From the NCBI RefSeq assembly GCF_003612015.1, contig NZ_RARB01000004.1, positions 1-64,000 of the forward strand: a stretch of 64,000 nucleotides of DNA, read 5' to 3'. The stretch's first letter is position 1, and each line of letters starts with the position of its first letter. Positions 41,805-46,201 of the stretch are shown here, one piece after another. A program made the position numbers and the translations under genes. Origin of the DNA: Pantoea piersonii (GTDB lineage: Bacteria > Pseudomonadota > Gammaproteobacteria > Enterobacterales > Enterobacteriaceae). The notes beneath the pieces were generated by a model that did not search any database, was not told the origin of the DNA, and saw only the letters and a program-made list of their open reading frames with translations.

Positions 41805-41880
41805 TCTCCCACTCTGTCGCGCAATTAAATAGGTGCTGACCCGCTGATTTCACACTGTTTTAGGAATAATGCGCAGAGCG

Positions 41881-41904
41881 GAGCGGCAAATTTTGCCGCT
41901 CTTT
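41881..41904 (+). terminator. Hairpin after the EamA transporter
   Basis: GAGCGGCA pairs with TGCCGCTC around AATTT and is followed by TTTAGCTAA. It is a moderate terminator candidate. Confidence 0.6.
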
Positions 41905-42059
41905 AGCTAATTAGCCGCTAAAGCCGAACGGCGAATCGCCATAAAAAGCGATCAAGATCTCATTTTTTTCGCCCGCGCGTTGGCGCTCATCGACTTTGTC
42001 CGGCGGAAATTCTTCTCTCTGACGGCTTATATTCCACCTTAAAGAAGCATTAAGGCTTT

Positions 42060-42263
42060 GTGAGTGGCGAGCAATTCGCCACTTTACTGCATATTTATCG
42101 CGTACCGCTGCGTTTTTATTGGCGTTTGGTCCTGAGAATGGCGTCTGATAAACCACCGTTTTTTCCAGAAATGGTCAGGCTATTAAGAATAATTCCCAAT
42201 GAAGGAAATTACGAAACTTTAGCCGGGGCGATCTTTAAAGTGATTTATCTTATATGTGATTAA
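42060..42263 (+). CDS. Small orphan reading frame, unknown function
   Basis: A 67-codon frame from a GTG with TAAGG four bases upstream, ending 39 bases before a strong intrinsic terminator. The product is basic and aromatic-rich (LLHIYRVPLRFYWRLVLRMA, then a C-terminal AIFKVIYLICD). I do not recognise a family. The first codons overlap an eight-base hairpin (AGTGGCGA/TCGCCACT at 42063-42083) that could affect initiation. Base composition is lower in GC than the flanking core genes, consistent with the accessory segment. The terminator is the best evidence that something is transcribed here, and it could be an RNA rather than a protein. Confidence 0.35.
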   Translation: MSGEQFATLLHIYRVPLRFYWRLVLRMASDKPPFFPEMVRLLRIIPNEGNYETLAGAIFKVIYLICD

Positions 42264-42302
42264 CCCGGAATAAGAAAAGCGATAAGCATTGATAAACCAT
42301 TC

Positions 42303-42330
42303 TGCCAGGAAAATTCCTGGCATTTTTTTT
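42303..42330 (+). terminator. Strong intrinsic terminator in the accessory region
   Basis: TGCCAGGA pairs with TCCTGGCA around AAAT and is followed by eight T. It has no recognised gene in front of it except the 67-codon frame. Confidence 0.88.
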
Positions 42331-42379
42331 ACGGTTCGCTTATTTGCGGCTGATTAAATATTCTTCGCTGGATGTAAAC

Positions 42380-42616
42380 TTAGTACCACCATTTCTTGCG
42401 GTAACCGAAGCGTGAATTAGAACGGCCGTTCAGCGCGGCTTAATAGAAAACCAGGGCTTTAGCGCCGGGCATTAACGAGTCTGATGAAAAGTAAGAAGCA
42501 CCAATCTCATCGAAATGAGATTGGGCGAGAGGAGAAGTAGCGAGAAATGCGAGACTTTTGCTGGTGCTTATCAATATTACCGCAAAAAATGAAAATCGAT
42601 CCGTTGGCAAACTCAT
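42380..42616 (-). pseudogene. Relict leftward reading frame interrupted by one stop
   Basis: From an ATG at 42616 the minus strand encodes 58 residues (MSLPTDRFSFFAVILISTSK at the start, SSDSLMPGAKALVFY at the end). There is one TAA at 42440-42442, then 19 further residues in the same frame ending GRSNSRFGYRKKWWY. No ribosome site is visible. Within it lies a perfect ten-base hairpin, CCAATCTCAT/ATGAGATTGG, with a CGAA loop at 42501-42524. I do not recognise the protein. It may be a decayed gene tail, or the DNA may be conserved for another reason such as an RNA. The segment between it and the transposase remnant shows nothing else. Confidence 0.3.
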
Positions 42617-42728
42617 CAGGAATGCATGGAGCGAAAATTAAAGCCACGAATGGTATCTTAAAGTGTCATCATCTCTTCTGGTAAGAACAATCTCAGCGCT
42701 AAGTCAGTTTAAGGCAGTATTATTGGTT

Positions 42729-43124
42729 TTATCGATTTTCCGATCCTGACGGGTAGTGGTAAACGCTGCGGCTAATATCGAGCAGGCGGCAGCTGCGGCG
42801 CGTGCCGATGTCGAAAGTGCTCTGCAGGAAGTTGACCGCCTGGCGCTTTTCGTTAGTGGTAAAGAAGTTCTTCAGTACGCTTTGCAGCATCTCCTTATCT
42901 GAGTTGAGCGTTTGCAGTTCACGGGTAAGTGCTTGTAGTTTATCCTCTAACTCCTTGATTCTTCTTCCTTCCTCTGAGGAAAGGCCGGAAAATTTCTTTT
43001 TCCAGCTATAGAAGGTGGCCTCAGAGATCCCCAGCTCGTCACAAATCTCCCTGACTTTAACCCCTGATTCAGAAGCTTTAATGGCATTTGTGATTTGCTC
43101 TTCGCTATATCGTGACTTTCTCAT
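42729..43124 (-). pseudogene. IS3-family transposase remnant (OrfA joined to the start of OrfB)
   Basis: The first 90 residues are a complete IS3-type OrfA. They comprise a helix-turn-helix (MRKSRYSEEQITNAIKASES, then ICDELGISEATFYSWKKK) and a leucine-zipper-like helix (LEDKLQALTRELQTLNSDKE). The frame then continues without a break into the beginning of OrfB (KRQAVNFLQ, then RRSCRLLDISRSVYHY) and stops after SGSENR. The DDE catalytic domain is missing, and no terminal inverted repeats were found. This is therefore a truncated element or a retained DNA-binding fragment. It directly precedes the flippase/ATP-grasp unit on the other strand and marks this region as a site of transfer. Confidence 0.85.
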
Positions 43125-43649
43125 AAATGCTCTTACCTTTCTTATCGATTAATGGATGAGATGTACTGTATTAATATCTGGCACTGTAAATAATCTATTA
43201 ATGCAGTATTAAAGTGCGCGATTAGAATTGCGTGGGTTAAATTAAGATATTTAGAATAAATATCATCATGGGATAAATCTTATTTTATTCTTATCGGATG
43301 GGCGCACCTTCCTGGTCAGGGATTTTTGTTATAGATTCTTCCCATCCCAAATACGAAAAATTTCTACGTACATTTGATATTTAGCATAACGTGCTTGCTA
43401 AATTCTCAGGGAAATGGCTTGTGAATGGGGTCTGTTTTCCGTGTGAAATCGATTCCAGATTAGCCCTTCTGAGCCAAATTTAATCAGAATTATCCTGAAA
43501 ATATTCACCGAATCGTGTTCTGATTCTCATTTTTCGGACCAGCCTGGTTTGAAATCTTTAAATAACGCCAGGCCCACTGAGCGCTTGTTAATTCGTTACA
43601 GGGATGTTGTACCGAAGCGGTTGAAGTAAGTAATGCAAAGGATGAGTCA
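43125..43649. other. AT-rich noncoding region upstream of the flippase gene
   Basis: These 525 bases contain no supportable gene. The stretch is AT-rich compared with the flanking core genes and must hold the promoter of the flippase/ATP-grasp pair. I looked for, and did not find, an ops/JUMPstart element (GGCGGTAGCGT) of the kind that precedes many enterobacterial polysaccharide operons. Confidence 0.45.
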
Positions 43650-44906
43650 ATGAAATTAAGCGTAATGTCTAATGCCGCCTGGATGATGTCTGAGAAGATC
43701 GTCTCGGTTTTTGGCGTCATATTTGTGACCTCCTACGTGGCGAAATCATTCGGGCCAACCGTATTCGGCCAGATGGCGTTTTCTACCTCTTTATTTTCAA
43801 TGGTCCAGACCGTCGCCATCTTCGGTACCGAGACTATCTTGTTTAAGCGGATCAGCAAAAGCGCGCCGAAAGGACTGCGCCTGATGAACGTGGCGCGTAC
43901 CCTGCGCATGATTTTACTGCTGCTCACCGCGGTGCCGGTGCTGGCCTGGGTGTGGTTCACCATGCCGCAAAATTTCCTCGCTTTCACTCTGGCGTCATTC
44001 GTCGCCTCGGTATTCGTTACCCAGGACACCTTCAGCGTTTACAACAACGCCCGTCTCGCTTCCCGGCTTAATACCGTGGCGAACTCGCTCGGCATGCTGT
44101 TGAGCTTCGGCATCAGCTTCACTATCGCCTGGCTGCGCCTTAATCCGGCATGGCTGACGCTCTCTATCGTGGCCGTAACGCTGGTGCCTTACGTTATCAA
44201 GCGCTACAACTTCTACCGCGAAACACAGGATGTCGCGCCGCCGCAGGAGAAACGCAGCGCTTATCTGCGCTATCTGATGTATGCCGGTCTGCCGCTGGCT
44301 ATTTCCAGCATTTTTATTTCAGTGCAGGTTAAAGCCGCGCAGATGTTTTTAGCCGGCATCGCTTCGGCAAGCGATCTCGGGCTGTTTGCGGCGGCCAACA
44401 CTATCGCGGCTTCGTGGATTTTTATCCCCGTGGCGCTCATAACTTCATGCTTCACTGAAATTTTCAGGGAACGCGGCGAAGTGGCTATTAAGCTGGCAGC
44501 GCGGCTCAATGGCTATGTCATGGGAGTATCACTGATGATGCTGCTGGTCATCGCGCTGTTCGGCGAGAAAATCATCATCGCTTTGTATGGTTCAGAATAC
44601 ACACAGTCAGGAAGTCTCATTACGTTGTTGTCAATGGCGACCTGCTTCTCCGCCATGGGCACAGTAGCCTACCGCTACATGGTGAAAGAGGGTGGTTTCA
44701 ACTATCTGTTGAAGAAAATCATCTGCCTGATGGTGATCAGCCTGCCGCTTTCGTGGTGGCTGATCCAGGGCTACGGCATTATGGGCGCCGCCTGGAGCGT
44801 CTTTGTGTCGGAACTCTTGTCCCTTACCGTAATGAATTACTTCTTCAAAAACGGCGTCATTCAAAGAATTCAAGTTTCCTCACTCAACTACAAAACCTAC
44901 AAATGA
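43650..44906 (+). CDS. Polysaccharide/oligosaccharide flippase (Wzx-like, MOP superfamily)
   Basis: A 418-residue inner-membrane protein with about 12 hydrophobic helices of the polysaccharide-biosynthesis flippase family, which moves lipid-linked glycans across the membrane. The typical N-terminus (NAAWMMSEKIVSVFGVIFVT, then AKSFGPTVFGQMAFSTSLFS) and the central amphipathic loop with KRYNFYRE are present. AAGGATGAG precedes the ATG. It overlaps the ribosome site of the following ATP-grasp gene, so the two form an operon. No glycosyltransferase, polymerase or ligase lies nearby, so its glycan must come from elsewhere or the locus is a remnant. Confidence 0.88.
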   Translation: MKLSVMSNAAWMMSEKIVSVFGVIFVTSYVAKSFGPTVFGQMAFSTSLFSMVQTVAIFGTETILFKRISKSAPKGLRLMNVARTLRMILLLLTAVPVLAWVWFTMPQNFLAFTLASFVASVFVTQDTFSVYNNARLASRLNTVANSLGMLLSFGISFTIAWLRLNPAWLTLSIVAVTLVPYVIKRYNFYRETQDVAPPQEKRSAYLRYLMYAGLPLAISSIFISVQVKAAQMFLAGIASASDLGLFAAANTIAASWIFIPVALITSCFTEIFRERGEVAIKLAARLNGYVMGVSLMMLLVIALFGEKIIIALYGSEYTQSGSLITLLSMATCFSAMGTVAYRYMVKEGGFNYLLKKIICLMVISLPLSWWLIQGYGIMGAAWSVFVSELLSLTVMNYFFKNGVIQRIQVSSLNYKTYK

Positions 44907-44914
44907 GGTCAGAT

Positions 44915-45865
44915 ATGTTTAAGTTGAAAGATGAACTCAGAAGAAGTGTGCAGTACTTCATTAAGAAGATGCCCTGGGCATACCAGGACCGCATTTACTA
45001 CTTCCATAAGTTCAGAAAATTGCCCAATCTGCGTCAGCCCAAAGTTTTCAACGAAAAGGTGCTGTATCGCAAATTCGTCTATGGCGACTACCAGATTTAC
45101 GGCCGCCTTTCAGACAAGTATTCGGTGCGCGACTATATCGCCGAAAAGATTGGCAACGAATACCTGATTCCGCTGGTGCACGAGACTACCGATCCGGCGT
45201 CGCTGAATAGCCTGCCATGCTGGAAGGGCACGGTGATCAAGCCGAATCACGCCTCCAATATGGTGGAGATTCTGCTGGAAGAGCCGGATGCGCTGCGCAA
45301 ACAGCAGATTATCAACAGCTGCTATAAGTGGCTGAAGACCGACTTCGCTAACGAGGCGCGCGAGATCCACTATCGCTATATCAAGCCGCGCATTCTGGTC
45401 GAGCAATATATCGGCGACGGCAAAACGGCGCCCATCGACTACAAGTTTCATATGTTCAACAAGCGCGACGGCCGCTTTGAATATGTGTTGCAGGTGATCT
45501 ACAACCGCTGCCAGCCGCAGCTGTCGATGAACTTCTACGTCAACAATCTGACCGAAGCTTTTCACAAGATTCGCGACACCGGCCTCGACGTGACGAAAAT
45601 CGCCGAGTCGCTGCAGCACGCGCTCGATCTGAGCAAGAAGCTGGCGAGTGATTTCGACTATGTGCGCGTTGACTGGTATATCCATGAGGGCCACATCTAC
45701 TTCGGCGAACTGACCTTTACCCCGGGCGCCGGTCTGGTGACAGGTCTGGATCGCGGGCTTAATCAGATGATGGGAGATATGTGGATTCAGGATCGCCGCG
45801 GCACGCAGAGACCGGGCGTTTCGGTGCAGGATGTTAATATTCCTGCGCTGTTGAAGAAAGTTTGA
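44915..45865 (+). CDS. TupA-like ATP-grasp protein
   Basis: A 316-residue protein of the TupA-like ATP-grasp family. The named relative, TupA of an alkaliphilic Bacillus, takes part in making teichuronopeptide, where amino acids join uronic acid sugars. The ATG at 44915 follows GAGGTC that overlaps the flippase stop codon. Readable motifs are FNEKVLYRKF near 45, the nucleotide-binding KPNHASNM at 109-116, DYKFHMFN near 187 and the magnesium-binding segment DWYIHEGHIYFGELTFTPG near 265. It probably joins an amino acid or similar group to a glycan carried by the flippase partner. The substrate is not known. A bidirectional terminator follows. Confidence 0.88.
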   Translation: MFKLKDELRRSVQYFIKKMPWAYQDRIYYFHKFRKLPNLRQPKVFNEKVLYRKFVYGDYQIYGRLSDKYSVRDYIAEKIGNEYLIPLVHETTDPASLNSLPCWKGTVIKPNHASNMVEILLEEPDALRKQQIINSCYKWLKTDFANEAREIHYRYIKPRILVEQYIGDGKTAPIDYKFHMFNKRDGRFEYVLQVIYNRCQPQLSMNFYVNNLTEAFHKIRDTGLDVTKIAESLQHALDLSKKLASDFDYVRVDWYIHEGHIYFGELTFTPGAGLVTGLDRGLNQMMGDMWIQDRRGTQRPGVSVQDVNIPALLKKV

Positions 45866-45880
45866 GTCACACAGCAAAAT

Positions 45881-45907
45881 AAAAAACCCCGCTTCGCGGG
45901 GTTTTTT
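45881..45907. terminator. Bidirectional terminator between the ATP-grasp gene and yjcB
   Basis: A CCCCGC/GCGGGG stem around TTC is flanked by six A on the left and six T on the right, giving a U tract in both directions. It ends both convergent transcripts. Confidence 0.93.
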
Positions 45908-45919
45908 ATTGGCTGGATA

Positions 45920-46201
45920 TTAAGGCATCGGCCAGTCGGGCGGCGTCTGGCTCATTACCTGGATAAAGGTGTCTTTGGTAACCAGCATAAAGTGCTGCAC
46001 GTTTTCCATGCTCAGCGAGATGCCCAGCAGACCCATAACAAACCAGCAGGTCATACCGAGACCGAGGCCGCCGCACATAAACGCCATCACATGATGGCTG
46101 CTCTGGCGGAATTTGATTTTAAGGGTGCTGGCAAAAAACATCATAATTGCGCTGAGCAGTTCCCAACGCATGACAATCAAGCTGGTGGTTATCGTCGCCA
46201 T
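45920..46201 (-). CDS. yjcB: Inner-membrane protein YjcB
   Basis: A 93-residue membrane protein of the same length as E. coli YjcB, with matching landmarks: the N-terminus MATITTSLIVMRWELLSAIM, a central TCWFVMGLLGISL helix and the C-terminus MSQTPPDWPMP. Two or three hydrophobic helices are visible. The function is unknown. In E. coli it lies directly after ssb. Here 6.7 kb of accessory DNA separates the two, which dates the insertion relative to the conserved order. A perfect CRP palindrome lies 110 bases upstream. Confidence 0.92.
   Translation of the reverse strand: MATITTSLIVMRWELLSAIMMFFASTLKIKFRQSSHHVMAFMCGGLGLGMTCWFVMGLLGISLSMENVQHFMLVTKDTFIQVMSQTPPDWPMP

Follow-up and report, generated by a model that had tools for sequence, protein, structure and literature searches.

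In this paper we describe two adjacent genes in a 64,000-nucleotide stretch of the Pantoea piersonii genome (contig NZ_RARB01000004.1, hereafter the window), which encode a Wzx-like flippase and a TupA-like ATP-grasp amidoligase. Our results show that they occupy a fixed core locus of Pantoea, and genome comparisons support that the two proteins form one functional unit. By analogy with a characterised relative, the ATP-grasp enzyme probably acts on a lipid-linked repeat unit made elsewhere and amidates its uronic acid, and the dedicated flippase would export this unit. A sequence-only reading of the window had described the pair in a variable site with a transposase remnant; our analysis confirms the pair but not this setting. 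The two genes are as follows:

43650..44906, + strand: Wzx-like MOP/PST flippase, 418 aa (open reading frame, Pfam, profile and fold comparison)
44915..45865, + strand: TupA-like ATP-grasp amidoligase, 316 aa, with intact active-site residues (open reading frame, Pfam, alignment)

Identity of the two proteins

The flippase stop and the ATP-grasp start are 8 bases apart on the same strand, and the earlier assignment of both genes is borne out by their coordinates, Pfam, and profile and fold comparisons. The ATP-grasp protein matches the Pfam family ATPgrasp_TupA (PF14305) with 109 bits against a curated cut-off of 25. Residues D67, K68, E163, K177, D253 and E265 are invariant in 46 ATP-grasp sequences and K109 is found in at least 90% of them. 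We take these residues to have nucleotide- and metal-binding roles, and as judged from the alignment the active site is intact. NCBIfam gave no match for either protein at E<=0.001, and neither did a search of PDB sequences at E<=1.

The window flippase matches the Pfam family Polysacc_synt with 24.9 bits, just under the cut-off of 28.2, which is exceeded by the related flippases of loci L120 and L126. Its predicted fold is a MOP fold and WzxE-like. In a profile-profile comparison with single E. coli proteins, RfbX (67.5%) and WzxC (60.5%) outscore WzxE (5.9%), with MurJ at 0.2%, so the sequence gives WzxE no preference. In a rival reading of peptide or small-molecule synthesis, the ATP-grasp enzyme makes a dipeptide-like compound, which the MOP protein then exports as MATE pumps do. 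We find this quite unlikely. The predicted fold scores higher against inward-facing WzxE (34.0) than against the best MATE (30.1), though outward-facing WzxE chains reach 21-23, and the flippase profile has weak matches to WzxE, WzxC and RfbX (18-23 bits, with MATE sequences outside the comparison). Its relatives also point to glycans, one being annotated as wzx beside an amidoligase in an O-antigen cluster and another lying between two GT2 glycosyltransferase genes.

A fixed core locus

Both the ATP-grasp enzyme and the flippase are matched in 60 of the 61 Pantoea-genus genomes (E<=0.001), the sole genome without matches being 1.4 Mb in size. Both primary copies are full-length and uninterrupted in 55 of the 61 genomes, with one ATP-grasp protein matched to residue 311 of 316, and at least one gene of the pair is broken or partial in G030, G041, G044, G053 and G060. 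The suggestion of a recent insertion at a variable site is therefore not borne out. For the Erwinia genus we used the 37 genomes of the genus containing the Erwinia typographi genome, which includes Winslowiella. An ATP-grasp match at E<=1e-10 is found in 26 of these, and every one of the 26 has a match that reaches 63% identity or more. The wider samples contain few matches: 12 among 394 genomes of the order (E<=1e-20), five of them over 60% identity and all in the same family, and nine among 369 genomes of the class (E<=1e-15), where only the window's genome is over 39%.

We additionally fetched 69 loci from named records by their ATP-grasp gene. By gene order and identity 65 of them are Erwiniaceae-type, a few being named otherwise (e.g. 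Enterobacter); Pseudomonas matsuisoli (L094) and three distant loci (L105-L107) were excluded from the following counts. The flippase is present in all 65 loci, yjcB in 64 and an IS3-like gene, described further below, in 62. Among the 60 loci with a single full-length flippase match, flippase and ATP-grasp gene are 8 bp apart in 56, 7 bp in two and 18 bp in two. In the nearest named loci, from P. latae, 'Ca. P. deserta' and P. septica, the ATP-grasp protein is 98-99% identical to that of the window. Some Erwinia have two tandem ATP-grasp copies after a single flippase (L085:4709-6951 and L086:4678-6951), which share about 60% and 68% identity with the window protein.

The broken pieces in some genomes, three of which are small (G030, G041 and G044), and an internal stop in the ATP-grasp gene of the Erwinia-genus genome G453 could indicate a genomic relic, that is, an old acquisition kept by its location and with no present role. 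This is very improbable given the uninterrupted genes in most Pantoea genomes, the conserved active site and the low ratios of nonsynonymous to synonymous substitution (dN/dS), whose medians are 0.066 for the ATP-grasp gene (19 usable out of 231 sequence pairs) and 0.073 for the flippase (46 of 231).

Recurrence of the pair

The co-occurrence survey of both families shows that the pair recurs as a two-gene cassette. A second, distant flippase and TupA pair is found in 26 of the 61 Pantoea-genus genomes and three more occur in two Erwinia-genus genomes. By a shared-flanking-protein test these 29 extra pairs represent 20 sites, a number that may be too high because the flanks are short. In the 27 extra pairs with both genes full-length, the flippase always comes first, on the same strand, and the gap ranges from -4 to +5. 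Taking one representative per site, 32 of the 40 directly adjoining genes were scanned with Pfam, the eight others being short open reading frames; one is a glycosyltransferase (L183) and three have no family. The window pair is likewise free of glycosyltransferases, as had been noted before: its open reading frames and a Pfam scan give none in the pair or adjoining it. The pairwise distances of the two proteins correlate closely (r 0.989, reached in 0 of 2000 permutations). The common strand, this co-variation, the 29 extra pairs outside glycan clusters and the plasmid copies support the idea that flippase and TupA are one unit.

A tblastn search of plasmids with the ATP-grasp protein gave matches in 135 of 72,556 records, all below 60% identity and 87 of them from Klebsiella; the DNA of the window pair itself is absent from the plasmids searched. 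Nine plasmid records were inspected, seven of which are plasmids and two chromosome-size E. coli records filed among plasmids. Flippase and amidoligase are both present on Klebsiella ColRNAI plasmids of 9.3 kb and 11.1 kb, whose amidoligase is carried by six K. pneumoniae records, and on one Pantoea plasmid. One conjugative plasmid has a split flippase and an amidoligase near a Tn3 transposase, two plasmids have the amidoligase with a more distant flippase-like gene, and on one the amidoligase is found without a match to the window-flippase family. A different TupA-like gene without a flippase match of the window family (L209:6938-7840) has a recombinase and a Tn3 transposase as neighbours and lies on a large Klebsiella plasmid that is conjugative. 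Among phages, 4 of 50,697 records have distant TupA matches.

The same two families are adjacent in the E. coli O46/O134 O-antigen cluster, at 37% and 28% identity to their counterparts in the window. Here the amidoligase lies immediately before wzx, in a cluster with glycosyltransferases and wzy and with ugd after gnd, an arrangement found in 17 of 5426 genomes. A further related pair, at 72% and 67% identity, exists in P. matsuisoli, flanked on one side by pilA (named by eye), an O-antigen-ligase-like gene and an IS200-like piece, and on the other by tRNA-Thr and nadC.

Several observations speak against a strict functional unit of this kind. No ATP-grasp match is found in 11 of the 37 Erwinia-genus genomes. 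The co-variation leans on four divergent pairs, without which r falls to 0.693 (Spearman 0.476, 23 pairs). About 280 bp separate the two genes on the Klebsiella ColRNAI plasmids, the order in O46/O134 is reversed relative to the window, and in an O167-type cluster (3 of 5426 genomes, with wzx and wzy named O167 family) the amidoligase sits among glycosyltransferases and not beside wzx. In the Pantoea genus, 7 of 33 secondary TupA hits have no adjoining match to the window-flippase family, and flippases of the same family are also found with glycosyltransferases and without TupA (L126), which together indicate that the pairing is not obligatory. The ATP-grasp model reaches only low TM-scores in Foldseek, 0.33-0.44 among the 50 matches listed.

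Proposed function and candidate substrates

For the chemistry we draw on one characterised TupA-like relative. This is Cj1438C of the C. jejuni HS:2 capsule, whose TupA-like ATP-grasp domain is reported to amidate the carboxylate of glucuronic acid (GlcA; PMC11800379, PMC12409886) with serinol phosphate or ethanolamine phosphate as the amine (PMC12409886). Its likeness to the window protein is that of a TupA-like ATP-grasp. The Cj1438C domain is fused to a GT2 in a capsule cluster, whereas the window protein is free-standing and paired with a flippase. By analogy, we expect the window ATP-grasp to amidate a uronic acid and the flippase to transport the product. The enzyme would act in the cytoplasm, using ATP to activate the uronic acid carboxylate on an undecaprenyl-linked oligosaccharide that another gene cluster has built, and the activated carboxylate would be joined to a small amine, perhaps an amino acid, an amino alcohol or the phosphate of the latter. 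An amino acid or peptide, as first proposed, is thus one candidate for the added group, the characterised relative reportedly using ethanolamine phosphate or serinol phosphate. The dedicated Wzx-like flippase would then flip the altered repeat unit, and the host pathway would polymerise or ligate the modified units in the periplasm. Beyond the chemistry, we infer the substrate, the amine and the order of these steps. The earlier proposal of a module that modifies and flips a lipid-linked glycan thus keeps its core, since the genes appear to be one unit and amidation is the best reading by analogy; what falls away is the variable site and the transposase remnant.

The window's genome offers two pathways that could supply the acceptor. 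Its cluster for enterobacterial common antigen (ECA) contains matches to wecA, wzzE, wecB, wecC, wecE, wzxE, wecF, wzyE and wecG, with rffG, rffH and rffC unmatched within the cluster. WzxE, the ECA lipid III flippase, is thus present as a separate ortholog, 70% identical to that of E. coli. An exopolysaccharide cluster has WcaJ-, WcaK- and WcaL-like genes together with a WzxC-like flippase of its own. Since both clusters have their own flippases, that of the window is additional. ECA contains N-acetylmannosaminuronic acid (ManNAcA) and Erwiniaceae exopolysaccharides often contain GlcA, which together with the presence of both pathways makes these two glycans candidate substrates. The likeliest substrates are therefore the ManNAcA of ECA or a GlcA-bearing repeat of a Wzx/Wzy exopolysaccharide, and we prefer neither. 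A further gene in this genome resembles an O-antigen ABC-transporter (by eye, L227).

These clusters also bear on the possibility that the pair completes a flippase-deficient glycan pathway encoded elsewhere, with the ATP-grasp enzyme acting on something else and the coupling being an operonic convenience. A three-gene GT2-flippase-GT2 cluster elsewhere in the genome (L126:7878-11171), whose flippase is 36% identical to the window's, shows that glycan genes are indeed scattered. Against this stand the flippases that the ECA and exopolysaccharide clusters already possess, and the recurrence and co-variation of flippase and TupA as a pair, so we regard it as unlikely.

The Pfam family PF14305 takes its name from TupA of an alkaliphilic Bacillus (teichuronopeptide), which differs in serving a Gram-positive cell-wall polymer, and we know of no paired flippase for it. 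The gtrABC seroconversion cassettes are small, lie away from the main cluster, alter a lipid-linked glycan and include a flippase, but they combine it with a glycosyltransferase and a glucosyl carrier, whereas the window pair consists of an amidoligase and a Wzx-type flippase. The pair does not fit a gtr-type cassette, as no glycosyltransferase lies in or beside it. Among the open-licence PMC papers listed by our searches, none deals with this pair in Pantoea or Erwinia.

Wzx flippases and amidoligases are familiar components of complete glycan clusters. A pair of the two on its own, fixed in one genus and also present at about 20 other sites and on small plasmids, would be a compact route to altered surface charge and antigen without new glycosyltransferases. 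More tentatively, and with doubt prevailing, flippase and TupA might be a portable two-gene system of general use, which remodels a host lipid-linked glycan by amidating its uronic acid and supplying a flippase that accepts the new charge. A core glycan, such as the ManNAcA of ECA or an exopolysaccharide, would then be amidated throughout Pantoea and most Erwinia, and plasmid copies would change the host surface in one step. E. coli O46/O134 provides a directly testable link, as its O antigen should show amidated uronic acid.

The surrounding site

In E. coli K-12 ssb adjoins yjcB, while in the window araC-like, eamA-like and IS3 OrfA-like genes, followed by the flippase and ATP-grasp genes, lie between them. 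The other features of the site are:

42729..43124, - strand: conserved IS3 OrfA-like gene with a helix-turn-helix (131 aa), oriented away from the flippase
43258..43290, unstranded: conserved noncoding block of 33 bp between the IS3-like gene and the flippase (alignment)
43328..43337, + strand: conserved extended -10-like element (by eye in the alignment; not listed by the automated scan)
45882..45908, + strand: terminator-like hairpin with A and T flanks, 3' of the ATP-grasp gene (seen by eye; absent from the automated scan)
45920..46201, - strand: yjcB, the right-hand boundary of the site

The IS3-like protein has an OrfA helix-turn-helix and matches the start of the IS3 transposase model, so it may include the start of OrfB; Pfam matched no catalytic domain in it. 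It had been taken for a transposase remnant, a description that does not fit a conserved, single-match gene that is neither degrading, multi-copy nor variably placed. Of the 61 Pantoea-genus genomes 57 have a single match each (E<=1e-25), as do 34 of the 37 from the Erwinia genus, and the gene has the same position in 62 of the 65 loci. Copies in 35 other aligned loci are 73-99% identical to the window's, with 69 invariant columns, and the median dN/dS of 0.053 (127 of 630 sequence pairs in the usable range) indicates that it is under purifying selection. It is matched in 6 of the 394 order-sample genomes, the sixth by a partial 53% match. We think that it is probably a DNA-binding protein that has been domesticated.

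The IS3-like gene is retained in eight Erwinia-genus genomes that have no ATP-grasp match (L160-L167), with no flippase match in the 12 kb around it, and in five of them (L163-L167) it adjoins yjcB. It therefore appears to be a resident gene, independent of the pair, and the idea of a pair-specific regulator is weakened.

The IS3-like gene and the flippase are separated by 511-558 bp in all but one of the 62 loci measured, the exception being L055 with 496 bp. Within this gap, the 33-bp block has 0 or 1 mismatch to the window's in 40 of 63 pair-bearing sequences and 3-11 in the other 23. The pair-free loci L160-L162 have 10, 7 and 7 mismatches, within the pair-bearing range, and L163-L167 give only chance-like matches with 14-16. 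As the block is recognisable in three of the eight pair-free loci, its use as a marker of the pair is only partly borne out. In L160-L162 little or nothing of yjcB is left either, which, with the block still recognisable, suggests that the pair was deleted there. The block is a possible control site of the pair. An RcsAB box in it scores at best 12 of 14, and 200 of 500 intergenic shuffles reach 12, so there is no evidence for such a box. With the extended -10-like element as start signal, the putative 5' leader would measure about 300 nt. The gap between eamA and the IS3-like gene (window 41805-42728) is AT-rich in the window and of similar length across the measured loci, mostly 820-960 bp.
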